NCBI GenBank assembly: GCA_945862285.1
Contig: CAMAYN010000015.1
Coordinates: 1-35,404, forward strand
Reading direction: 5' to 3'
DNA: 35,404 nt
Source of the DNA: Akkermansia muciniphila
Lineage (GTDB): Bacteria > Verrucomicrobiota > Verrucomicrobiia > Verrucomicrobiales > Akkermansiaceae
This document shows positions 4,476 through 31,422 of this stretch, piece after piece. The position numbers were made by a program, and so were the translations under genes. Numbering within the stretch: position 1 is the stretch's first letter; every line of letters starts with the position of its first letter. Below the pieces are notes generated by a model. It had not been told where the DNA came from. It did no database searches and saw nothing but the letters and a program-made list of their open reading frames with translations.

Positions 4476-6671
4476 TCAATTTTTCCATCCCATGTTTCGC
4501 AGTTCTTTGGCTAGGCTGCTCGCCCATTTTACATAACTAGGTGCATTGAGGTGCAATAAATCCGGCATAGTGGATTTTTCTAATACGCCATCCGATGTCA
4601 GGAATTGCGGTGCCATATCGAGCCAGAAGACCGATTTCTGATCGGCATAAGGTTTAATGATTTCATTGATTTTATCGTTAATCACACGCAGTTCATCGGT
4701 AGGCTCTGCGCCTCGTGGGAAGATGGCGTGGAGGAGAATTTTTGTATCTGGTGAGCGGTCGCGAATGAAATCGATGATCATACGAATGCCTTGCGCGGTT
4801 TCATGGGGATTTTGTTTGGCTTGTCCGGTATTGTTCGTGCCGATCATTAAGCTCACAAATTCGGGTTTGATGCCATCGAACTCGCCATTATAAAGTCGCC
4901 AGAGCACGTGCTGTGTTTGGTCGCCCGAGAATCCGAGGTTCAAGATCGGCGTGGCTGCAAAATGGGTGGCTAGTGCCGTTTTGCCATTTCCTTGCCATGC
5001 TTGGGTGATGGAGTCGCCAAGGAGGACAAGCTTTGGTTGTGGTTGATCGCCTTTACGGATCGCGGCGACATTTTTGATAATCTTGCTGTGCCGCTCTTTC
5101 CACCATCCTGCGGTAAGCCGCATGGTGGGAGTGGTGGCGGCGTTGACTTGGTATTCGCTGCGTTTTTTCTGATAGATGGTTTTGAGCTCAGCGAGGATTG
5201 CAGCGTATTCCGGAGAATCGTGCAGCGATTTCATTTCGCTGGGATCTTTTTGTAGATCGAAGAGATTCCATTGCTTGGTTGCAGGAAAATAGATGAGTTT
5301 ATGCGTTTCTGTGCGTACGCCGTCGTGTTGGGCAACGTTGTGAGTATTTTCGCCGTAGTAGGCGTAGTAAATGGCCTCGTTGTGCGGTTTCTTCTCGTCT
5401 TTGAGTGATGCGAGGAAGCTCTTACCTTGCATTTCTGGAGTGGCTTGGTTACCAATCATCTCTAAAAGGGTGGGTGCGTAGTCGATGTTTTGTATCAGTG
5501 CCTTCGGTCTTGCGCCTGGCTTGATGACTTCTGGCCAACGAATGATAAAGGGCATGCTGAGGGACTCTTCAAACATCCAGCGTTTGTCGTACCATCCATG
5601 CTCGCCTAGGTAAAAGCCTTGATCAGAAGAGTAAATGACGACCGTGTTTTTCGCTAATCCCGATGTTTCTAAGTATTCGAGCAGCCTACCTACAGATTCA
5701 TCTACTGCGCGAATGGTGCGAAGATAGTCTTTGATGTATCGTTGATATTTCCAACGAGTGATTTCTTTCGCATCGAGTTCTCCTGCTTGCATTTTTGCAA
5801 TAAACGCCTGGTTCTCTGGCTCTCTTGTTGCATCCCATTCCTGCTTTTGTTCCGTGGTCATGCGTTGGTATTCATGGTTCATGTCCATATCACTGAAGTA
5901 TTTTGGAAAAAGATTTTTTCCATGAAATTTCATATCGTGCGACCAAGTTAAATCGTTCTCGATCGACATTGCTTGTTTTTTTAGCGAAATGTCGCGATTG
6001 GAGTAATCGTCAAATAAAGAATCTGGTTCGGGAATGGTGACATCCGAAAATAATTTGACATGGCGCAAGGCGGGAGACCAGTTCCGGTGGGGTGCTTTAT
6101 GCTGGCACATGAGGAAAAATGGCTTGCTGGTATCGCGTCGGCTTTTTAGCCAATCGAGCGACATATCTGTAATGAGATCGGTGCAGTAGCCGCTTAATTT
6201 TTTTTGGCCACTTTTTTCGATAAAGGCGGGATTGTAGTAGCTTCCTTGTCCTGGAAGTATGCACCAGTGATCGAAGCCTTGTGGTTCTGAGACGAGATGC
6301 CATTTGCCGATGATGGCGGTTTGATAGCCGGAAGATTGTAATATCTTGGGCAGTGTTTGTTGGTGTCCGTCAAAGGTATCGAAATCATTGCTGAGGTAGC
6401 CATTCATGTGTGAGTGCTTGCCAGTGATGATGCAGGCGCGTGATGGCCCACAAATGGAGTTTGCACAGAAGGAATTCCGAAACAAGGCGCCTTCATTGGC
6501 GAGTCGGTCGATATGGGGTGTGGGTGCAATGTCTTTCAACGGTCCGCCATAGGCTGAAATCGCTTTAATGGCATGGTCATCAGAAAAGATGAACAGCACA
6601 TTCGGAGGCGTGGCATTTTGTGCATGGGCGCATTGCAACAACACGAAGCAAACCGAAAAAATGTATTTCAT
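4476..6671 (-). CDS. Sulfatase fused to a C-terminal SGNH/GDSL hydrolase domain, secreted
   Basis: Signal peptide; sulfatase motifs NVLFIFSDDH and CGPSRACIITGKH (formylglycine-type C-x-P-S-R); C-terminal VLLGDSITQAW...IGTNNTG and DLLHLN SGNH blocks. Confidence 0.88.
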   Translation of the reverse strand: MKYIFSVCFVLLQCAHAQNATPPNVLFIFSDDHAIKAISAYGGPLKDIAPTPHIDRLANEGALFRNSFCANSICGPSRACIITGKHSHMNGYLSNDFDTFDGHQQTLPKILQSSGYQTAIIGKWHLVSEPQGFDHWCILPGQGSYYNPAFIEKSGQKKLSGYCTDLITDMSLDWLKSRRDTSKPFFLMCQHKAPHRNWSPALRHVKLFSDVTIPEPDSLFDDYSNRDISLKKQAMSIENDLTWSHDMKFHGKNLFPKYFSDMDMNHEYQRMTTEQKQEWDATREPENQAFIAKMQAGELDAKEITRWKYQRYIKDYLRTIRAVDESVGRLLEYLETSGLAKNTVVIYSSDQGFYLGEHGWYDKRWMFEESLSMPFIIRWPEVIKPGARPKALIQNIDYAPTLLEMIGNQATPEMQGKSFLASLKDEKKPHNEAIYYAYYGENTHNVAQHDGVRTETHKLIYFPATKQWNLFDLQKDPSEMKSLHDSPEYAAILAELKTIYQKKRSEYQVNAATTPTMRLTAGWWKERHSKIIKNVAAIRKGDQPQPKLVLLGDSITQAWQGNGKTALATHFAATPILNLGFSGDQTQHVLWRLYNGEFDGIKPEFVSLMIGTNNTGQAKQNPHETAQGIRMIIDFIRDRSPDTKILLHAIFPRGAEPTDELRVINDKINEIIKPYADQKSVFWLDMAPQFLTSDGVLEKSTMPDLLHLNAPSYVKWASSLAKELRNMGWKN

Positions 6672-18693: not shown

Positions 18694-18924
18694 ATTCGTC
18701 TAGTATGGTGGAAAATTAGCGCAGGTCGGTTGATGATTAGCGCAGGTCGGTTGAGAATTAGCGCAAGTCGGTTGATGATTAGCGCAGGTCGGTTGATGAT
18801 TAGCGCAAGTCGGCTGAGAATTAGCGCAAGTCGGTTGATGATTAGCGCAAGTCGGTTGATGATTAGCGTGAGTCGGTTCGTGATTATCTTGGGTCGGTTG
18901 ATGATTTTTCGTGATCGGTGTTTT
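18694..18924 (+). repeat. Tandem array of a 21-bp unit, ATTAGCGCARGTCGGTTGATG
   Basis: Units at 18715, 18736, 18757, 18778, 18799, 18820, 18841, 18862 and 18883, with degenerate flanking units at 18694 and 18904. Confidence 0.95.
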
Positions 18925-18981: not shown

Positions 18982-20310
18982 ATGCTTTATTTTGGGTTCC
19001 CGAAAAAATACATGTTTGAAGTCCGTGAACGCCCTGAAATGGTCGAACGAGCGATGCTCGTGAGTATTTATTTTGATCCAAAAGAGGAGGATCAAGCAGA
19101 GTCATTGTTAGAGGAACTCCATGAGTTGGTAAAAACACTGGAAATCAACATCGTCCATAGCGTATTAGTGCGCTCTCGCAGTTTGCATAAACAGTTTCTC
19201 TGTGGCACCGGCAAGGCTCAGGAAATTATCGATCTGGCTCGTGCGTTTGAGTGCGATGTGATTGTTTTCGATAATGGCCTTGCGCCTTCCCAGCAGCGGG
19301 AGTGGGAGAAATTGGGGAATATCGCGGTGATTGATCGCGAAGAGGTGATCTTGGATATTTTTAATAAACGCGCTGCGACTCGCGAAGCCCGCATTCAGGT
19401 GGATCTGGCTCGCATGCAATATGCCTTGCCGCGCATGGCCCGTATGTGGGGTCACCTTGACCGCGAAGGCGGTGGCGGCTCGTCGGGGGGAGGTGCAGCA
19501 AATCGTGGCATGGGCGAAAAACAAATCGAAGTTGACCGTCGTCTCGCACATGCTCGCATTGACCGCCTAAAGCGCGAATTAGAAGATGTCCGCGCGCAAC
19601 GTCGCACGCAAAGGAAAGAGCGGCAGAAGCTCGGTACGCCACACGCGGCCATCGTCGGTTATACCAATTCGGGGAAATCGACATTGCTTAACCGCTTGTC
19701 AGGTGCGGATGTGTTAGCGAAAGATATGCTCTTTGCCACATTGGATACTACGACAAGGCGCATTGAATTGCCCGATGGTCAACCGTTGCTCTTAACCGAC
19801 ACCGTTGGTTTTGTGCGGAATTTACCGCATCGACTTGTGGAAGCCTTTAAAGCCACATTAGAAGAAGCCGTTTTGGCAGATTTCCTCATCCATGTGTTAG
19901 ATTGTTCTTCGCCAGAAGTTGATGAGCTGTATAATACCACGCTGGAAGTTCTCGAAGAACTGGGTGCGGGAGATAAAAAGATCATCACGGTTCTGAATAA
20001 AAGCGATTTGTTAGAGGATCAAGTTCAGCGACTTTTGTTAGAAAATCGCTACCATGGTGCGATTTTTATCTCGGCGGCGTCGGGCATGAATCTTGATTCT
20101 CTGCTCGCGGCATGTTCAGAGGTGCTAGCGGATCGTGTGCACATTGCGCACTATCGCATTCCGCAAACGCGAGGTGATATATTGCATTTGCTGCACCGCG
20201 AAGCTAAGATTTCAGAGACGGAATACGAAGAGAACGATGTGATCATCACCGCTATCGTTCCTGCCCCTATTGCTGGGAAACTTCAGCCATTTTTGCTATC
20301 ACCTGAGTAG
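18982..20310 (+). CDS. hflX: GTPase HflX
   Basis: GTGKAQEI, glycine-rich GGGGSSGGGAANRGMGEKQIEVDRR, G1 GYTNSGKSTLLNRLSG, G3 DTVGFVRNLPH, G4 NKSD. Start could instead be internal (MFEVRERPEMVERAML at 19012). Confidence 0.95.
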   Translation: MLYFGFPKKYMFEVRERPEMVERAMLVSIYFDPKEEDQAESLLEELHELVKTLEINIVHSVLVRSRSLHKQFLCGTGKAQEIIDLARAFECDVIVFDNGLAPSQQREWEKLGNIAVIDREEVILDIFNKRAATREARIQVDLARMQYALPRMARMWGHLDREGGGGSSGGGAANRGMGEKQIEVDRRLAHARIDRLKRELEDVRAQRRTQRKERQKLGTPHAAIVGYTNSGKSTLLNRLSGADVLAKDMLFATLDTTTRRIELPDGQPLLLTDTVGFVRNLPHRLVEAFKATLEEAVLADFLIHVLDCSSPEVDELYNTTLEVLEELGAGDKKIITVLNKSDLLEDQVQRLLLENRYHGAIFISAASGMNLDSLLAACSEVLADRVHIAHYRIPQTRGDILHLLHREAKISETEYEENDVIITAIVPAPIAGKLQPFLLSPE

Positions 20311-20353: not shown

Positions 20354-20372
20354 TGTTACGAAATTGTCACAA
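20354..20372 (+). promoter_or_regulatory. Motif site A, TGTTACGAAATTGTCACAA, upstream of the 571-aa gene
   Basis: 17-mer TTACGAAATTGTCACAA (20356-20372) recurs exactly on the opposite strand at 23959-23975. Confidence 0.6.
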
Positions 20373-20409
20373 TCTAACAAGTGGCAAGCATGGGCGCGGT
20401 CTGTATTAG

Positions 20410-22125
20410 GTGAACCCTGCTGTGGAACTATTTCTCATCGACGCTATTGGCCCGTTTTTTCGCGGGCATACTGGAAAACGGATTAACTGGTCGAAAATCC
20501 CATTCGTCATGCTCGACGAATCTCCGCCAACGTGGGATCGGATTCGAGCGGATGTGTGGAAGTTTTGTAAAGAATCTTCTGCACTTGGCTACAATGCCGT
20601 GACTCTGGATGACGTTGCGCATTTGTATCATCACCCACTTCATGAAGAGGAGTTGCGCCTCCGTATCGCCTTCCTGCGCGATCAATTTCGACAAATTTTC
20701 CGCATCGTTATCGAAAGCAAAATGCAAGTCTTTCTGACGGTGGATGCCGTGCCCATGACTGCGGCATTGGAACGTCACTTTTGCTATGATCGCGAGGCGA
20801 TAGATCGGTATTTCCAAAACATGATCGCTAGCGTGCTGGATGATTTTCCTGAAATTGCGGGCATTATTTTACGCATCGGTGAGAGCGACGCGCGGGATGT
20901 GAAAGATCCACTAAAATCGCATTTGCACATTAAATCGGCAGCGCACGCGAATGAGGTCTTGCACCTGCTGCTTCCCGAATTTGTTGCGAGAGAACGTACG
21001 TTGATTTTTCGTACATGGACAGTTGGGGCTTATGGCATAGGCGACCTGATCTGGCATCGCGATACGATTTCTAGAGCATTAGCTGGACTCGGCGGGGAGC
21101 ATTTCATCGTCAGTATGAAACATGGAGAAAGTGATTTTTTCCGCTATCTACCTTTGAATAAAGCATTTTTCCACGTGCCGCAGAAAAAGATCATCGAACT
21201 CCAAGCAAGGCGCGAATACGAAGGCGCAGGCGAGTATCCGTCGTTCATCCTCAAGGATTGCCTCGCCTTTCACACACAACTTGCCACGATTAAAAATATG
21301 GTAGGCATGTCGGTATGGTGCCAGACTGGCGGTTGGCATCGCTTTAAAAGGCTGGCATTTTTGCAGCAAGATGAATCGGATCGCTGGATCCGCGCCAATG
21401 TTCTTGCTGCCATTCGCATTTTCCGCTATGGCGATAGTCGCGATGAATTCCTACAACATTGGATGCCGCAGCATGCGAAGGAAGCAGGGCAATTTATCGA
21501 TTCCTGCGATCACCTCATCGAGCAAGGCTTGTACATTAAAAGTTATGCACGACAGAAAAATTTCTTCCGCCGACTGCGCTTACCGCCGCTACTCCACACC
21601 TACTGGGATTCCGTCTATGTTCATCCGTTTCTGCGGGTATTTAAGCAGCAGTTGATCTGCGATTATGAATCCGAACTCGCCGCAGACAGCCAACTGATGA
21701 GCGAATTTGCAAAACTGAAAGCCAACTGCCAGGCGTGGGGATGGCCCGCAGATGACATCGAGCACATGGAGGATTTATGGCGCATTCTCTTGCTGGTACG
21801 CGCTTATTATTTCAGTCCCGATAGCGATAAAGCATTATCGATGGTACGCGATGCGAAAAAGGCTTACAAAAAAAGATGGCCTGCTGCACAACGTACACGT
21901 TACCGCATTAAAACCAATTTCCCCCGCCAAGCTCTGTCTCCGAAGCTAGTAAAATGGTGCTCGAAAATTTTCCTCCGTGGAAAGCGCGGCTACCGGATTT
22001 TTGATCAAATCGTCACCATCCACGGCCTAGCGATTCTTTTCAAGGCGACCTCTGCCAACTCCCGTAAGGCATTGCCCAAAGCTCTGCGCAAACTTGCCAT
22101 GGGTATCGATACCCTATTTCGTTAG
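20410..22125 (+). CDS. Hypothetical TIM-barrel/glycoside-hydrolase-like protein
   Basis: 571 aa; alternating strand/helix segments (YNAVTLDDVAHLYHHP, KMQVFLTVDAVPMTA, EIAGIILRIGESDARD, LIFRTWTVGAYGIGD) resemble GH TIM barrels. GTG start. Confidence 0.7.
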   Translation: MNPAVELFLIDAIGPFFRGHTGKRINWSKIPFVMLDESPPTWDRIRADVWKFCKESSALGYNAVTLDDVAHLYHHPLHEEELRLRIAFLRDQFRQIFRIVIESKMQVFLTVDAVPMTAALERHFCYDREAIDRYFQNMIASVLDDFPEIAGIILRIGESDARDVKDPLKSHLHIKSAAHANEVLHLLLPEFVARERTLIFRTWTVGAYGIGDLIWHRDTISRALAGLGGEHFIVSMKHGESDFFRYLPLNKAFFHVPQKKIIELQARREYEGAGEYPSFILKDCLAFHTQLATIKNMVGMSVWCQTGGWHRFKRLAFLQQDESDRWIRANVLAAIRIFRYGDSRDEFLQHWMPQHAKEAGQFIDSCDHLIEQGLYIKSYARQKNFFRRLRLPPLLHTYWDSVYVHPFLRVFKQQLICDYESELAADSQLMSEFAKLKANCQAWGWPADDIEHMEDLWRILLLVRAYYFSPDSDKALSMVRDAKKAYKKRWPAAQRTRYRIKTNFPRQALSPKLVKWCSKIFLRGKRGYRIFDQIVTIHGLAILFKATSANSRKALPKALRKLAMGIDTLFR

Positions 22126-22128
22126 ATA

Positions 22129-22941
22129 TCATAGCGGATCAACGAGTTGTCGTGCCGCTGCCGCAAGGCTGGCGGCATCGCCGTATGCTTCTGCCGGAAT
22201 AACGCCGCGGAGAATCATACGATGCGTCGTATTGCATGCTGCGGTAAATGTCCTACCTAACAGAAACGTCCGTACCAAAGGATGCAAGGACAGGAAATAC
22301 TCCATCGTCCGCTGATGATGGGCATCGATTCGTAAACAAGCCACTGGCACACGGCAACGCAGAGCGATTTCGAAAACCGACAACATCCACGCACCGTCCC
22401 TCACCACGCCGTCGTCTTGCATCCACGAAATCGTGCCAGCGGGAAATGCCGCTATGCAACCACCTTGGTTCAAGTGCTGCATCGCCCGTCGTAAACTCTT
22501 CGCATTGCGTCGAGCTGCCTGTTCGCCACCATAAAGGGACAAACCAATGACGTGATTCTTAAAAGAAGGAATCGTCACCAGTGCATCGGTCGTCAGGATC
22601 AACGTATCCAATCGCTGCTCTAACAACCATTTTCCATAACTAATACCGTCCATGCAGCCCGTCGGATGATTCGCCACTACGACCAGAGGTCCACTCGGCA
22701 GAGATCCATCGCCCACGACGTTGAGATGACTTAGCTCAGCGATTCCGATGAAGGGATTCGCTGCATCAGGATTCAGCTCGTGTGCCTTTGCTGTAATCTT
22801 TCCCCCTTTGTCAAAAGCCGTAACCCACGCCGCGAAATTTCGCAGCCACTGCTTGAATCGGCTTTTGCCCGCTAAAAAGGGTAACGCAACGGATAGATCC
22901 GGAATGGAATCACGCCAAGAGCTATCCTTTTTGCTTCCCAT
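22129..22941 (-). CDS. olsA-like: PlsC-like 1-acyltransferase (OlsA/GlsA type)
   Basis: VVVANHPTGCMDGISYG (NHx4D-like block) and IAAFPAGTISW; start refined to MGSKKDSSWRDS, overlapping the stop of the upstream gene. Confidence 0.78.
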   Translation of the reverse strand: MGSKKDSSWRDSIPDLSVALPFLAGKSRFKQWLRNFAAWVTAFDKGGKITAKAHELNPDAANPFIGIAELSHLNVVGDGSLPSGPLVVVANHPTGCMDGISYGKWLLEQRLDTLILTTDALVTIPSFKNHVIGLSLYGGEQAARRNAKSLRRAMQHLNQGGCIAAFPAGTISWMQDDGVVRDGAWMLSVFEIALRCRVPVACLRIDAHHQRTMEYFLSLHPLVRTFLLGRTFTAACNTTHRMILRGVIPAEAYGDAASLAAAARQLVDPL

Positions 22942-23891
22942 CACGCACAATCTCGTCCCGCCGCTGCATGATACGCGCGTAAATTCTCCCAACCATCGGC
23001 ACCCAAATACCGCTTAACAGTTTGATCGGGAGCTGCGAGCAAATCCGTCACAATCAATACATCGATCGAATCACCAAAATTCGAATCAACATTAAAATCT
23101 AATACCCGAGCATTCAGTTTCAGATAGTGTTTGAGTAAAATAGGAATCCCCATCCCATCCACATCCGTTACGGTGGCATTGACCGCTTCTACCGTAGCGC
23201 ATTTGCGAAATAACTCACTCGTACCATCTTGCAGTTGATCGATTTCTTCCAGCACCGAACGAAACGGTTGATGCGCTTTCACCATCGGGCTCCAGTTGTC
23301 ATGCATGCGGTCTTGACGTAAGAATTCCACCATCAAGCTTCGGCTCAGATGCGAATAATCATTACTGATACTCACCGGGCCAAACAACAAGCGATGTTGT
23401 GGATTTTTACTGACAAATGCTCCGATTCCTTTCCATAACAAAGACAAAACAAAAGGATGCCCCTGATACTCTGGAACTACAAAAGAACGCCCTAGTTCAA
23501 TTCCTTCATTTAACAAATCGAGAAAATCGCTAGAAAAACCAAATAGTGTGCTTGTGTAAATCCCCTGGTCGCCCGCTGTGGCACGGATTGTCCCCACAAC
23601 TCCGATCCGATAGCCGCCGACGATTTTTTTCGCTTCGTCATCCCACAAAAAGAGTTGTAGATAGGTATCGTCGAAGGAATCCATGTCCATGGATTTACCC
23701 GTGCCTTCACCAATACAGCGGAATGTAATTTCCCGCTGAATGGCAATCTCGCGCATAATGTTGGGAATTTCTTTCGATGAACATAGGTAGGTAGAAAATT
23801 GATTATGCTGATGCAGTCGCTTGTCCGCAGGTAACTGCGCAAGCTCTCTCGCTAGAGAATCAACGTGGACGGATGTAGCTATCGTTTCCAT
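22941..23891 (-). CDS. olsB-like: GNAT-like N-acyltransferase for aminolipid synthesis (OlsB/GlsB type)
   Basis: VGGYRIGVVGTI...GIELGRSFVVPEYQGHPFVLSLLWKGIGAFVSKNPQHRLLFGPVSISNDYSHLSRSLMVEFLRQ matches Acetyltransf_5 (PF13444)-type proteins; coupled to the PlsC gene. Confidence 0.8.
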   Translation of the reverse strand: METIATSVHVDSLARELAQLPADKRLHQHNQFSTYLCSSKEIPNIMREIAIQREITFRCIGEGTGKSMDMDSFDDTYLQLFLWDDEAKKIVGGYRIGVVGTIRATAGDQGIYTSTLFGFSSDFLDLLNEGIELGRSFVVPEYQGHPFVLSLLWKGIGAFVSKNPQHRLLFGPVSISNDYSHLSRSLMVEFLRQDRMHDNWSPMVKAHQPFRSVLEEIDQLQDGTSELFRKCATVEAVNATVTDVDGMGIPILLKHYLKLNARVLDFNVDSNFGDSIDVLIVTDLLAAPDQTVKRYLGADGWENLRAYHAAAGRDCA

Positions 23892-23958
23892 AATTTTGGG
23901 ATAAATTGGTTCGCAGGAGTCCTTGTCGAAGAATCATTGGGTTTTTGCCAGACCTGCT

Positions 23959-23975
23959 TTGTGACAATTTCGTAA
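23959..23975 (-). promoter_or_regulatory. Motif site B, TTACGAAATTGTCACAA on the minus strand, upstream of the olsB-like gene
   Basis: Plus-strand TTGTGACAATTTCGTAA is the exact reverse complement of site A's 17-mer; same orientation relative to its downstream gene as site A. Confidence 0.6.
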
Positions 23976-24015
23976 GATTGGCAAGTAAAAGATTCCTCCG
24001 ACAAAATCGCAGATC

Positions 24016-24039
24016 TTGTGTGACGAACGTGTCACACAA
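24016..24039 (+). promoter_or_regulatory. Motif site C, TTGTGTGAC-GAACGT-GTCACACAA, upstream of the giant phosphoesterase gene
   Basis: Perfect 9-bp inverted repeat with 6-bp spacer; contains TGTGACGAACGTGTCACA, aligning with sites A and B. Confidence 0.65.
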
Positions 24040-24099: not shown

Positions 24100-27000
24100 A
24101 TGAAACGAAAACAATTCCATATACTTGCCCTACTATCTATGCTGGCGCCATCCGCCTATGCATTGTCGCCCGGCGATGTAGCCATCATCGGGTATAATAC
24201 GTCTGGTTCGCCAGATTCATTTACGATCGTAACAATGACTGAGCTTGCTGCTGGCACGAGCTTTTTTATCAACGATAACGAAATCGCCACTGATGGCGGT
24301 GGATCGTTCACCGACCTGAATGAAGGGGAGGCATCATTCACTGTCAAAGCCGGCCAAACCATTCCAGCAGGCACCGTCATCACACTCCCATGGGGTGGTG
24401 CTGCGGTTTCCACGTCAACCTATGACTACAGTACAACTTCAGGTTTTGGCCTCGGCAACAACAACGAGGAAATCCATATCTATGAAGCCAGTTTGATCAC
24501 TTCTACAACGCCGACTACCTTCCTATTCAGCGCAAAGATCGGCAGTAGCCCAAGCTCACGTCCCTCAGGTTTGACAGCGGGTACTACATTTATTTCGCCA
24601 ACAGGTACAGCATCGCGCTACAAAATCGCTGGAGCCACGTATTCGGGCACTCCGAGCGAACTACTCACCGCCATCGGCGACACCGCGACTAACTGGGAAG
24701 CAGTTGCACCAGCAGCCACGACGGATTGGACATTTTCTGTTACCGGCGGCGGCGGTCCCACAAATACCCTCACGCTCTCCGCGTCTCCAAGCACTTTTTT
24801 GGAAAATGCGACCAATCCAGCCTCTGTTGGTACTGTCACTCGCTCGGAAGTAACGGGCAGTGATCTGGTTGTAACCCTTTCCTCGTCTGATGTCACCGAA
24901 GTCACAGTGCCTGCTACCGTGACAATTTTGGCCAATCAGGCTTCCGCCACCTTCGATGTTGCGGCGGTGAATGACGACATTCCAGATGGTAATCAAATCG
25001 TCAATCTGACTGCTACCGCATCATCCTCTTCCACGGGCAACTTCAATGTCACAGTGCAAGATGATGGCGATACACTACCTCCTACTGCTTTGCAAACAGG
25101 TGACATCGCTTTCACCTCTTTCAACGCCGACCGCGATGCCATCGCTTTCGTGGCACTAGATGCCATCCCCGCTGGTGAAGTGATCTACTTCAACGACAAC
25201 GAATGGAACGGCAGTGCCATCGGTGCGGGCGGTGCTTTCAACACTGGCGAAGGTGTCGTAACCTGGACAGCCCCCGCTGGCGGAGTTGCCGCAGGAACTG
25301 TCGTAGTGATTGATAACTACGATGTATCTACTACGATTTCTGCCTCTGTAGGCACCGTTACTGGTTCATCAGGTCTCAGTGCCACAGAAGAATCCATTTA
25401 CGCCTATCAAGGACTATCTTCCAGTCAACCTACCACGTTTCTTGCTCTCGTCGCCAACCACGCCGCAGATAGCATCGCCAACACGGGCCTGACCTCAGGC
25501 ACCACGGCAATCTACCTTACGAGCAGTGCTGACTTTGCTGACTATGCAGGCGCACGCTTTGGTCAAGCAAGCTTTGCCGATTATCTGCCCATCATTGGTA
25601 ATATCACCAACTGGACGATTAACGTTGACGGTGCTGGTGTAGATGTTGTGCCAAGTGCAACCCCATTCATCACTGGCACTCCTGCTGTTACCGTTGGCAT
25701 TGCATCCACCGTTTCTGTGACAGAAGGCAACTCTGGTTCTGTGCAACTCAACTTCCCTGTCACACGCTCGATTGACGCGACGGCATTTTCTATCGATTAC
25801 GCCATCACTGGCGGCACGGCCACATCAGGCACTGACTTCACACCACTCGCCAGCGGCACACTCACTTTCCCCGCCAATAGTGGACCACTCATGCAAAACA
25901 TCAGCGTGGAAATCCTCGGCGATGAAATCATCGAGTCAAATGAGACGATCATCATCACACTTAGCAACTTGGTGCAAACCACGGGCACAACGACCCTGAC
26001 TACGGCGGTCAGCACTGGAACAATCACGAACGATGATTCTGTCCCCAACGTGTTTCCCGCAAGCAACAGTATTGCCACTTCGGTAAAAGGAAATATCACC
26101 CTCGCAGGTGCAGAAATCCCCGCCTTCGATCCCATTTCCAAGCGCGCTTTCGCCGCCTCCGGCACCGGTATTCAAGTGGTCGATCTCACGAACCCTGCTT
26201 CGCCAGTTTTTATCTCTACCATCCAGCCCTCCACCCTTATTTCGGGATTGGTAGGTGACGACATCTCTTCCGTTGCTGTTCGCAAAGGTTCTGGCAGCAC
26301 CCCTAGCATCCTTGCAGCATCCATCATTAACTCGCCCAAGACCACCAACGGCCACGTGGTTTTCGTCAACGCCGCCACGGGTGCATTGCTCGGCACCGCT
26401 ACCGTTGGCTCCGTTCCGGATCACATCGCCTTCACGCCCGATGGCACCAAGCTCCTCGTGTGTAACGAAGGGGAACTCGATGGCAGCAACGCTAACATCG
26501 CCACCGAAAACATTCCTGGCACCGTGAGCATCATCAATATCACGAATGTTGCCGCACCCACCGTGCAAACCGCAGGTTTTGCCAGTTTCAATGCTCAAGC
26601 CGCCGCGCTCAAAGCCGCTGGCGTCCGTATCTTCGAAGGCGGAATTCCCGAGTTCGATTTCGAGCCTGAATACCTCGCCATTTCTCCCGACGGAACCAAG
26701 GCCATGGTCACTCTGCAAGAAGCCAATGCCGTCGCCATCCTCGACATCGCATCTGCGACATTTACTTCCGTCGTTCCTCTCGGTGAGAAAAATTTCATCA
26801 ACGGCAGACACGACTTCAGTGACCGCGATGCCGCCGGCGGCAGTTCTGGCCTCGTTAACCCTACCACGGGTAATCCAGTCTTCGGCCTCTACATGCCCGA
26901 TGCCATTGCTTCCTACTCCGTTGGTGGTCAAACCTACTACATCACCGCTAACGAAGGCGATGATCGCAATGACTTCATCGAGCCTAACGAAACCACAACT

Positions 27001-30000
27001 GTCTCTGCTGCTGGTTATGTTCTCGATCCTACAGTATTCCCGGATGCCGCTACCCTGAAAACAAATCCTCGTCTCGGTCGCTTGGTGGTCTCAAACGCAC
27101 CAGGTCTGCGCGGTGATATTGATAACGATGGTGACATTGATCGTATCCTCAGCTACGGCGGACGTTCCTTCTCCATTCTCGACGCCAATGGCGCACAAGT
27201 CTTCGACAGCGGCGATATGATCGAAATGATTGTCGCCTCTCAGTTTCCTGCACTGTTAGATGACACTCGCAGTGACAACAAAGGTCCCGAGCCTGAGGGC
27301 GTTACCGTTGCGAAAATCGGCGCCCGCACCTTTGCCTTCATCGGCCTTGAGCGCTCGCACATGACGCTCGCCTTCGATGTGACGAATCCACTCGCCCCTA
27401 CCTATGCCACCGCGTTCCAACGCACTGGCGATTTAAATCCAGAAGGCATGGTCGTCGTCGAAGCTGCCGATAGCCCCTCCGGCAAGCCACTGCTCATCGT
27501 AGCCAACGAAGTTTCAAATACACTTACTGTGTTTGAAATCAATCAACCCGTTGATTTCAAACTCCAGTTGCTCCATCTCGCCGATGCTGAAGCAGGTCTC
27601 CTTGCCTCACAAACGGCTCCAAACCTAGCCGCGCTCGTGGATGCCTTTGACGGCACTTACGCTAACACCCTCATCCTCGCTGGTGGTGACAACTTCATCC
27701 CTGGTCCATTTATCGCAGGTGGAACAGATATCTCCGTGCGTGACGAACTCAACACGGTCACAGGTTCCACCATGAGCCTCACATCACCCACGTTCAATCA
27801 CCCGACTGCCGCTGTGGACATCGCTATTCACAACCTCATCGGTGTTGAGGCATCCACCGTCGGCAACCACGAGTTCGACCTTGGCACCCGCGTTTTCCGC
27901 GATGCGATTCAAGCCGGTAGCGGCTGGGTAGGAGCAAATTTCCCCTACCTCTCCGCGAACTTGGACTTCTCTGGTGACTCCGACATATCAGGCCGCTTCA
28001 CCAACACCCTAAGTGGCAACTCCACGTCATTGATTGCTGAAGCCAGCACCCTCAAGGGACGCATCGCCCCCTCCGCCGTCGTCACCAAAGGTGGAGAAAA
28101 AATCGGCCTCGTCGCCGCCACCACCCAGATACTTGAGAGCATCTCCTCCACTGGTGGTGTGGAAGTCATCGGTTTCTCTGGTGACGGCTCCGAGACAAAC
28201 AACATGACGCTCCTCGCCTCACAACTCCAGCCCGCCATTGATGAGCTGAAGTCTGAAGGTGTAGATAAAATCATCCTCATGGCGCACCTCCAGCAGATTA
28301 CCCTCGAGCAACAACTCGCACCACTCCTCAATGGCGTGGACATCATCCTTGCCGCCGGGTCTAACACCCGCCTCGGCGATTCGAATGACGTAGCCGCAGC
28401 CTTCACTGGCCATACCGCTGACTTCGCTGCCAACTACCCCATCTACACCGCTGGTGCTGATGGCTTGCCCACCGTCATCGTCAATACCGACAACGAGTTC
28501 ACCTACCTCGGTCGCCTTGTTGCGGACTTCGATGCCGACGGTGTCTTGATCGTGCCGAACCTAATGGCGAACATCGTGGAAAACGGTGCCTATGCCGCCA
28601 CCGATGCCAATGTTGCCGCCGCATGGAATACTACCGTAGGCAACCTGCCGACGACAGCCTTCGCCGCTGGCACCAAAGGCGCGCAAGTGAAATTGCTCAC
28701 TGATGCCGTGCAGGCGGTGATTAATGCCAAAGACGGCGACATCCGTGGCTACACCGATGTCTATCTCGAAGGCGAGCGCAATATCATTCGCAACCAATCT
28801 ACCAACCTTGGTGACATCACTGCAGATTCGCTCATCGCTGCCGCGAAACCATCGCTTCCTTCTGTTACACACATCGCCGCATTCAAAAACGGCGGTGGCA
28901 TTCGCTCCTCTATCGGAGCGGTGGAAGTTGGCAACGGACTCAAAACACCACCGATCGCCAACCCTAGCGCCAATAAACCAGCGGGAGCCATCTCTCTTCT
29001 GGATATCGAAAACTCCCTGCGTTTCAACAACGGCATCATGGTCTGCGAGACTACACCTACGGGTCTCAAAAATATCATCGAGCACGGCGTATTCAACGCA
29101 GGCACCAGCAACGGACGTTTCCCACAGATCGGCGGCATCCGCTTCTCCTACGATCCCTCCCTCAGCCCAGGAGCACGTGTCCTCAGCCTTGTGTTAGTCG
29201 ATGAAAACGACAACATCACGGGCCGCGTCGTTTCGAATGGAGTGATTCGCTCGGACGCACCTGCGACCATCACTATCGTCACTATGAACTTCATTGCCAA
29301 TGGCGGTGATAGCTATCCATTCAAAGCCAATGCGGACAATTTCCGCTACGTGCTAAACAATGGAACACTCTCCTCCGTGGTGGACGAGTCACTCGATTTC
29401 ACAAATGCGGCAAACGTGCCCTCGAATATCCTTGGCGAGCAACTTGCCCTATCCAACTACCTGCAAGTCCGCTACGCTACACCAGCAAGTGCCTTTGACA
29501 TTGCTGATACGACTCCGGCCTTTGACATCCGCATCCAAAGCACCGCCGTCCGCAGCGATGCCGTGCTCGCTGGCCCCGCCACCTTTGGCGCATGGCTCGC
29601 CCTCAACGGCTACACTTCCACCGGTATTGATACTGATACCGATAACGATGGCGTGATCGATAGTCTTGAGTTTTTCTTCAATCAAAACCCCAACAATGGT
29701 GCTGATCAAGAAAACTTACCGAAGCTCGTCCCTAACGGAAATGCTTTAGCGATGCAACTCGCCTACAACAACCAGACTCCCCTGAGTGGTGCGCTTCAAG
29801 TATCCAGCGATCTCACTACATGGGACAATGGATTCTTAGGAGTTGACTTCTCTGTGGCATCGAGCGTTGTCAATGGCGATGAAACAACCGTTAACTACGC
29901 ACTCCTGGGCAGCGGACCATCCGCCGCTGGCACATCAGCGACCTACGCCACGCCAAACAGTGCCGATCCCGCAGGTGCCTCTCTCGGTGGTGTCCGCGTC

Positions 30001-31422
30001 ATCAATCACGGCCTCGTTGGTGTTGGTCGCCTCAGCGGCAATGCCCTCGACCAATTCGGTGAAACACAAGGCGCCGCCTCTGGCCTGTTCATCTCCAACT
30101 GGGCATGGAACGGCAACCAGTTCACTGGCACATTCAACGTGCTTCCTGACCGTGGCTACAACGCAGGCACGATCTTCTCGAACTACGCCGCCCGTCTCCA
30201 CGATGTGAACTTCACCTTCTCCCCTTACTACGGCACTGCGCCCGTCGCCCAAGGTCAGATCGTCCCCACCTACGCCAGTTCCACCAAGTTCACTTACATG
30301 GACGGTGAGAAAATTAAATTTACTACTGGACTTGATGTGACATCCACTGGCTCGCTCTTCGGTGAATCCGTTGGGATTGCCACGGCAGCGAATGGCCCAG
30401 GCGGCACGCAAGAAAGCCTACTTAGCTTCGATGCCGAAGCTGTGTATCTCTTCAGCGATGGCTCCGGCTACGTCTCCGATGAATACGGCACCTACATCGC
30501 CCGCTTCAACTCGGCAAAACGCATCACTGGCATCACTCAGCTCCCTGAGTCCGCCCGTCCGCACAACCCCGCTGGCACATCGAATTTCAGTTCCACTACC
30601 ACACCAGTCAGTGGTCGTCGTCAGAACCAAGGTCTCGAAGGTATGTCCGTCACTCCCGATGGCACCCGCCTCTTCGCCGTCATGCAAAGTGCCCTCGTGC
30701 AAGACACCAACGGTGCCAACCAACAAACGCGCAATAATACCCGCCTCTTCGTTTACGATGTCGCTGGAGTCAATCGCGAGAACCCCGTGTTGATTGGTCA
30801 ATACGTCGTCAAACTGCCACAGTTCCAGGCCACTGGTGCTGGCACAGCCGTCAACCGCACCGCCGCACAATCGGAAATCATTGCTCTCAACGGCACATCC
30901 TTCCTGATGCTGCCCCGTGATGGTAACGGCCTCGGCACTGGCACTACCGCGCCCATCGTCTTCAAGTCCGTGCAGCTTGTCGATTTCGCCTCCGCGACCA
31001 ACATTCTTGGCATGTATGATGCCGAAGGCGCTGCCGTCAGCCCTGCAGGCGTTCTTCGTCCAGAAGTAAAAGCCGCCGCTTCCATGGAAGTGATCAACAT
31101 GCTTGAGCCAACAGACCTTGCGAAGTTTGGATTGAATAAAAACACCAATCCCTCCAACGCAAATACTCTGAACGAGAAAATGGAAGGCATGGCACTCGTG
31201 CCAGACCTCTCCACTCCCGCCGCTAACGACTTCTTCCTCTTCATCGCCAACGATAACGACTTCCAGTCGTCCGATGTGAAGATGATCGATGCCAGCGGCG
31301 CACTCGTCAGCTACGGCGACGGTCGCCTCAACGCCGGCCTCACCAACGACGCGATGTTCTACGCCTACCGCATCACGATTGACGCTAGCGGCAAGCGCTT
31401 CTTCCGCTTTGAAGTGAAATAA
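24100..31422 (+). CDS. Giant secreted multidomain phosphoesterase: two N-terminal beta modules, Calx-beta, choice-of-anchor-I propeller, 5'-nucleotidase/metallophosphatase, phytase-like esterase domain
   Basis: Start refined to MKRKQFHILALLSMLAPSAYA; Calx-beta VTEGNSGSVQLNFPV...GTITNDDS; LQLLHLADAEAG...GDNFIPG...GNHEFD and the 5'-nucleotidase C-terminal block FKNGGGIRSSIG; DTDNDGVIDSLEFFFNQNPN; phytase-like GVGRLSGNALDQFGETQGAASGL and NQGLEGMSVTPDG. Confidence 0.85.
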   Translation: MKRKQFHILALLSMLAPSAYALSPGDVAIIGYNTSGSPDSFTIVTMTELAAGTSFFINDNEIATDGGGSFTDLNEGEASFTVKAGQTIPAGTVITLPWGGAAVSTSTYDYSTTSGFGLGNNNEEIHIYEASLITSTTPTTFLFSAKIGSSPSSRPSGLTAGTTFISPTGTASRYKIAGATYSGTPSELLTAIGDTATNWEAVAPAATTDWTFSVTGGGGPTNTLTLSASPSTFLENATNPASVGTVTRSEVTGSDLVVTLSSSDVTEVTVPATVTILANQASATFDVAAVNDDIPDGNQIVNLTATASSSSTGNFNVTVQDDGDTLPPTALQTGDIAFTSFNADRDAIAFVALDAIPAGEVIYFNDNEWNGSAIGAGGAFNTGEGVVTWTAPAGGVAAGTVVVIDNYDVSTTISASVGTVTGSSGLSATEESIYAYQGLSSSQPTTFLALVANHAADSIANTGLTSGTTAIYLTSSADFADYAGARFGQASFADYLPIIGNITNWTINVDGAGVDVVPSATPFITGTPAVTVGIASTVSVTEGNSGSVQLNFPVTRSIDATAFSIDYAITGGTATSGTDFTPLASGTLTFPANSGPLMQNISVEILGDEIIESNETIIITLSNLVQTTGTTTLTTAVSTGTITNDDSVPNVFPASNSIATSVKGNITLAGAEIPAFDPISKRAFAASGTGIQVVDLTNPASPVFISTIQPSTLISGLVGDDISSVAVRKGSGSTPSILAASIINSPKTTNGHVVFVNAATGALLGTATVGSVPDHIAFTPDGTKLLVCNEGELDGSNANIATENIPGTVSIINITNVAAPTVQTAGFASFNAQAAALKAAGVRIFEGGIPEFDFEPEYLAISPDGTKAMVTLQEANAVAILDIASATFTSVVPLGEKNFINGRHDFSDRDAAGGSSGLVNPTTGNPVFGLYMPDAIASYSVGGQTYYITANEGDDRNDFIEPNETTTVSAAGYVLDPTVFPDAATLKTNPRLGRLVVSNAPGLRGDIDNDGDIDRILSYGGRSFSILDANGAQVFDSGDMIEMIVASQFPALLDDTRSDNKGPEPEGVTVAKIGARTFAFIGLERSHMTLAFDVTNPLAPTYATAFQRTGDLNPEGMVVVEAADSPSGKPLLIVANEVSNTLTVFEINQPVDFKLQLLHLADAEAGLLASQTAPNLAALVDAFDGTYANTLILAGGDNFIPGPFIAGGTDISVRDELNTVTGSTMSLTSPTFNHPTAAVDIAIHNLIGVEASTVGNHEFDLGTRVFRDAIQAGSGWVGANFPYLSANLDFSGDSDISGRFTNTLSGNSTSLIAEASTLKGRIAPSAVVTKGGEKIGLVAATTQILESISSTGGVEVIGFSGDGSETNNMTLLASQLQPAIDELKSEGVDKIILMAHLQQITLEQQLAPLLNGVDIILAAGSNTRLGDSNDVAAAFTGHTADFAANYPIYTAGADGLPTVIVNTDNEFTYLGRLVADFDADGVLIVPNLMANIVENGAYAATDANVAAAWNTTVGNLPTTAFAAGTKGAQVKLLTDAVQAVINAKDGDIRGYTDVYLEGERNIIRNQSTNLGDITADSLIAAAKPSLPSVTHIAAFKNGGGIRSSIGAVEVGNGLKTPPIANPSANKPAGAISLLDIENSLRFNNGIMVCETTPTGLKNIIEHGVFNAGTSNGRFPQIGGIRFSYDPSLSPGARVLSLVLVDENDNITGRVVSNGVIRSDAPATITIVTMNFIANGGDSYPFKANADNFRYVLNNGTLSSVVDESLDFTNAANVPSNILGEQLALSNYLQVRYATPASAFDIADTTPAFDIRIQSTAVRSDAVLAGPATFGAWLALNGYTSTGIDTDTDNDGVIDSLEFFFNQNPNNGADQENLPKLVPNGNALAMQLAYNNQTPLSGALQVSSDLTTWDNGFLGVDFSVASSVVNGDETTVNYALLGSGPSAAGTSATYATPNSADPAGASLGGVRVINHGLVGVGRLSGNALDQFGETQGAASGLFISNWAWNGNQFTGTFNVLPDRGYNAGTIFSNYAARLHDVNFTFSPYYGTAPVAQGQIVPTYASSTKFTYMDGEKIKFTTGLDVTSTGSLFGESVGIATAANGPGGTQESLLSFDAEAVYLFSDGSGYVSDEYGTYIARFNSAKRITGITQLPESARPHNPAGTSNFSSTTTPVSGRRQNQGLEGMSVTPDGTRLFAVMQSALVQDTNGANQQTRNNTRLFVYDVAGVNRENPVLIGQYVVKLPQFQATGAGTAVNRTAAQSEIIALNGTSFLMLPRDGNGLGTGTTAPIVFKSVQLVDFASATNILGMYDAEGAAVSPAGVLRPEVKAAASMEVINMLEPTDLAKFGLNKNTNPSNANTLNEKMEGMALVPDLSTPAANDFFLFIANDNDFQSSDVKMIDASGALVSYGDGRLNAGLTNDAMFYAYRITIDASGKRFFRFEVK

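Follow-up and report, generated by a model that had tools for sequence, protein, structure and literature searches.

A candidate Pho-regulon operator with dyad symmetry in an Akkermansia contig and in related genomes

The window analysed here is one entire contig (C15, 35,404 nt) of an Akkermansia muciniphila genome assembly (GCA_945862285.1; 3.65 Mb in 279 contigs). The first-pass annotation had singled out a 17-mer, TTACGAAATTGTCACAA, said to occur identically on opposite strands in two promoter regions; our search of the window finds it exactly so, at 20356-20372 (+) and 23959-23975 (-). Upon aligning the copies, we see that the real unit is an 18-bp dyad, TGTGAC-N6-GTCACA. The sites of this kind in the window, with the genes and elements around them, are:

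20354 to 20371, + strand: site A, TGTTAC-GAAATT-GTCACA, one mismatch to the dyad, holding most of the first 17-mer
20382 to 20387, + strand: TGGCAA, a -35-like box read in the sequence 10 bp after site A, putative promoter element
20422 to 22125, + strand: conserved protein, probably of 567 aa (earlier called a 571-aa gene), downstream of site A
22129 to 22992, - strand: acyltransferase (PF01553), related to the N-terminal half of OlsF (NF052615 profile positions 79-246)
22941 to 23891, - strand: olsB-like N-acyltransferase (PF13444), OlsF C-terminal half, GlsB-related (NF052615 positions 278-569, E 4e-70)
23960 to 23977, - strand: site B, TCTTAC-GAAATT-GTCACA, two mismatches, holding most of the second 17-mer
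24019 to 24036, + strand: site C, TGTGAC-GAACGT-GTCACA, the exact dyad, 63 nt before ATG 24100
24100 to 31422, + strand: large protein, predicted to be secreted, with choice-of-anchor I, 5'-nucleotidase C-terminal and phytase-like domains

The olsB-like gene is followed by the acyltransferase gene, and the pair looks like OlsF, the ornithine-lipid synthase, divided into its two halves; the OlsF N-terminal half, to which the acyltransferase is related, performs the O-acylation step of ornithine lipid synthesis. Site C lies 42 bp beyond site B in the same divergent intergenic region. The large secreted protein on its far side would start at ATG 24100 rather than TTG 24073, with an N-terminus, MKRKQFHILALLSMLAPSAYA, that looks like a signal peptide. 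At the other end of the locus, a 21-bp tandem repeat of about nine copies (ATTAGCGCAAGTCGGTTGATG) occupies 18715-18906, just 5' of an HflX-like GTPase gene (18982-20310).

Orthologues of the protein encoded downstream of site A begin at the residue encoded by GTG 20422, which fits them better than GTG 20410 does, so that the protein is probably 567 aa long. It has no sequence match in Pfam, NCBIfam or PDB, and no signal peptide is apparent. The predicted structure (mean pLDDT 83.8) finds its closest fold among the GH67 alpha-glucuronidases (Z 22.3, rmsd 3.7 over 397 residues, 11% identity), and the GH67 middle domain is matched weakly by 4 of 31 relatives; our guess from this model would be a glycolipid-linked role or an intracellular glucuronide role. 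The protein belongs to a conserved orphan family, which many Verrucomicrobiota have and which occurs in Leucothrix and Desulfobulbus too. No phosphate genes were found among the neighbors of the gene in these last two genera; an E. coli-like site goes with the orthologue in Leucothrix, but at three mismatches it is too weak to use.

The distances first reported for the 17-mers can be given anew for the dyad. From the end of site A it is 38 nt to GTG 20410, but 50 nt to the orthologue-aligned GTG 20422, and the olsB-like ATG (23891) lies 68 nt from the dyad end of site B, where 67 nt had been given. The copies had also been described as pointing toward their start codons; this is only partly meaningful, since the 18-bp unit is nearly a palindrome. 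Past the TGGCAA of site A there is a -10-like TATTAG at 20404-20409, 16 bp further on, and the same TGGCAA hexamer stands 9 bp after site B on the minus strand (23950-23945). No further copy of TTACGAAATTGTCACAA with three or fewer mismatches occurs in the window (0.18 expected in shuffles). An RNA element was set aside, as no Rfam family matched in the window. The odds of 4^17 that had been offered against chance are overstated for a window of this size: 19 of 100 dinucleotide-preserving shuffles of it contain some 17-mer shared with the inverse strand. The case therefore stands on position and conservation, not on coincidence.

A search of the genome for the dyad with at most one mismatch found 20 places. 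Three lie well inside genes; the rest are located at gene starts or ahead of them, and a few run into the first codons when the frame is taken at its longest. The only PhoU gene of the genome, which heads phoU-phoB-phoR (C182), has a copy 45 nt before its start, and the only intact PstS gene, followed by PstC- and PstA-type permease genes (C37), has one 62 nt before its start; a second TIGR02136 match (C144) is a short fragment containing a stop. A DUF47/PhoU_div gene has a copy 13 nt ahead of it; a further copy, with three mismatches, lies between the genes of a PhoD-like phosphatase and a large metallophosphatase-domain protein. Two sites, 53 nt apart from start to start, precede a gene of DUF3419, the family of the betaine-lipid enzyme BtaA (C32; L025:5691-5708 and 5744-5761). 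One site precedes a glycosyltransferase-phosphoesterase fusion, an open frame of 647 aa (C134; L299:3-1943, -). This fusion, which is also seen in relatives (L259, L265), joins a GT4 glycosyltransferase and a calcineurin-like phosphoesterase in one protein. The targets further include a TonB-type receptor gene, and genes lacking a clear phosphate link, namely those of the isocitrate/isopropylmalate dehydrogenase family, baeRF and a Zn protease. The 17-mer belongs to an 18-bp dyad, whose regulon is very probably the phosphate regulon; the first-pass annotation had reached neither point.

Two further observations come from the same genome. Identical dyad-like sites, TGTGTCGATTTTGTCACA, are found on two contigs (C149, L300:448-465; C209, L301:1846-1863), and one of them is 190 nt from a gene of the isocitrate/isopropylmalate dehydrogenase family. 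A near-perfect E. coli-like direct Pho box, TTGTCATGAAATTGTCATAA, is found close to a contig end (C214; L032, starts 148, -), which truncates the gene that it would control.

The dyad is conserved in the family. By its named relatives the genome sits in Verrucomicrobiota, near Verrucomicrobiaceae and Akkermansiaceae such as Luteolibacter and Haloferula. Among 60 genomes of the same family, the dyad occurs exactly 65 times, versus three times for a reversed control. Many of these copies abut pstS, and the genes beside a selection of them include pstB-phoU-phoB-phoR and PstC-like permeases; phoB itself is preceded by the dyad in the genomes of two relatives, OprP/OprO-type phosphate porin genes are preceded by it in four genomes, and glycosyltransferase-phosphoesterase fusions stand beside it in two relatives' genomes. 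Outside the family, genomes of the phylum show the exact dyad at background level: about 129 were covered, and 6 have it, in one copy each. We also ran a de novo motif search by expectation-maximisation, with no symmetry constraint; its input was the upstream sequence of 20 genes orthologous to the 571-aa gene and of 28 pstS genes from the family. The motif that emerged was the dyad, before 19 of the 20 orthologues and 24 of the 28 pstS genes, and in the 43 aligned orthologous sites a TTGNC box starts 9-10 bp 3' of it. Over 79 named loci, a site with three or fewer mismatches was present in 53, as against about 5 in shuffled sequence. The olsB homologues of the same genus also have the site upstream, in a weaker form, and the link to olsB does not extend beyond the genus. 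The suggestion that the repeat is a promoter operator is supported, since few of the sites in the genome lie well inside genes and the site is conserved before orthologues.

The arms of the motif occupy positions 1-5 and 12-16, that is, as half-sites 11 bp apart. This is also the half-site spacing of the Pho box, and the motif could be read as a Pho box of the classical, direct-repeat kind in which a single position is asymmetric. PhoB half-sites GTSAC would then follow each other in tandem at that spacing, and would look palindromic only because GTGAC and GTCAC differ by a single base. We regard this as possible but doubtful. The arms do match as direct repeats save at position pair 3/14, and a few sites are direct, for example GTGAC-N6-GTGAC (L161) and TGTCATGAAATTGTCAT (own contig C214). 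However, pair 3/14 fits inversion at 32 of the 43 sites and direct repetition at one, the spacer reads YY at positions 10-11, mirroring RA at 6-7, and in a leave-one-out comparison of models with equal parameter numbers the inverted model (18.62 bits per site) is ahead of the direct model (16.10) by 2.5 bits per site; a free model reaches 18.96. By pair 3/14 and by this comparison the half-sites are not direct TGTCA repeats, and the classical box was rejected as a description of the motif that precedes pstS and the 571-aa gene, which is inverted. Direct sites may exist besides: TGTCA-N6-TGTCA occurs 165 times in the 60 genomes, against 68 for controls.

What gives weight to the inverted symmetry is that PhoB of E. 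coli binds tandem direct repeats (PMC10294691, PMC3348028), and that a 2016 paper stated that every OmpR/PhoB-family site then known was a direct repeat (PMC4832192). HP1043 was once supposed to bind inverted repeats and so to be an exception; the sites mapped for it turned out to be direct (PMC5253667). We tentatively suggest, as one plausible account among others, that PhoB of the Akkermansiaceae may have given up head-to-tail binding on direct repeats and come to bind an inverted repeat head-to-head, upstream of the -35 box, giving an operator architecture specific to the lineage.

A possible objection is that a Pho-regulon operator of this shape belongs to some other dimeric regulator, which controls the same genes in place of PhoB. 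Sites with inverted repeats are typical of other families of regulators, direct repeats are what most OmpR/PhoB regulators bind (PMC4832192, PMC3960148), and the symmetry of the site is inverted by the bit scores just given (18.6 vs 16.1). We nevertheless consider this unlikely. First, sites precede phoB or its operon in this genome and in related ones, which matches what PhoB autoregulation predicts. Second, no other regulator gene was seen adjoining a site. Third, the recognition residues of PhoB are largely conserved: in the proteins of this genome and three relatives, the E. coli PhoB residues R193, T194, D196, H198, R201, R203, T217, R219 and Y223 are kept, T replaces V197 and K replaces R200. 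Given this conservation of the DNA-contact residues, PhoB stays the best candidate binder.

The TGTGA half-site resembles that of CRP, yet a CRP/FNR-family site (TGTGA-N6-TCACA) is very improbable and was rejected, because the spacing here exceeds that by two bases (TGTGA-N8-TCACA), the spacer is flanked by a nearly invariant C and G, and the associated genes are phosphate genes. Despite the inverse-strand 17-mers that shuffled windows yield, there is hardly any room left for chance coincidence or for a dispersed or mobile repeat (REP/MITE-like), as the copies have only the 18-bp core in common between unrelated flanks, the sites stand before gene starts, with few well inside genes, and are conserved across genera, and exact dyads far outnumber their reversed controls in the family.

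What is directly established is that the site exists, where it lies, that it is conserved, that it goes with pst and pho genes and that it has dyad symmetry. Several points speak against reading it as a Pho operator bound by PhoB: its symmetry differs from the direct repeats of E. coli PhoB, some of the sites stand before genes that have no clear tie to phosphate, and site B, with its two mismatches, is weak, its olsB link being confined to the genus. With these points weighed, we still hold it highly probable that the 17-mer is the core of an 18-bp Pho-regulon operator, bound by PhoB and activating the window genes upon phosphate starvation; that PhoB is the binder, that the effect is activation rather than repression, and that the signal is phosphate, we infer.

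The biology of PhoR and PhoB is established, and the following scheme of the starvation response is drawn from it. When phosphate is scarce, PhoR would phosphorylate PhoB; dimers of PhoB would then occupy the dyad, some 10 bp ahead of a -35-like TTGNCA, and stimulate transcription. The window genes induced in this way would be the olsB-like and acyltransferase genes, for ornithine-lipid-type synthesis, and those of the conserved protein with the GH67-like fold and of the secreted nucleotidase/phytase-like enzyme, which would free phosphate from nucleotides. Phospholipids would be replaced by phosphorus-free lipids.

Several parallels with known systems bear on this scheme. Like the Pho box of E. 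coli and other Proteobacteria, the dyad is a promoter element that precedes pstS, phoB/phoU and phosphate-scavenging genes, and its two half-sites, of 5 bp each, contain TGT-A and stand 11 bp apart; the genome also encodes a PhoB whose DNA-contact residues are largely conserved. The dyad differs in being inverted (TGTGAC-N6-GTCACA) where E. coli has direct TGTCA repeats, and apparently in ending 9-10 bp upstream of a putative -35 box, an element with which PhoB sites of E. coli overlap (PMC3348028). With the operators of M. tuberculosis PhoP and other OmpR/PhoB-family regulators it shares two half-sites about one helical turn apart, although theirs are direct repeats (PMC4832192). The PlcP-Agt system of marine heterotrophs likewise has phosphoesterase and glycosyltransferase genes with upstream Pho sites, and ornithine and betaine lipids as phosphorus-free replacements (PMC4796936). 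Unlike in that system, both domains are here in one protein (the 647-aa product on C134), and the same dyad stands before the genes of all three kinds, ornithine-type, betaine-type and glycolipid.

Our literature search, of incomplete coverage, found no described Pho operator in Verrucomicrobiota. The dyad is a candidate Pho-regulon operator for a family of this phylum, and would be a variant of the Pho operator. One switch would tie a conserved uncharacterised enzyme to three routes to phosphorus-free lipids. If PhoB binds the dyad, its inverted symmetry would depart from the direct-repeat rule of a very large family of regulators.
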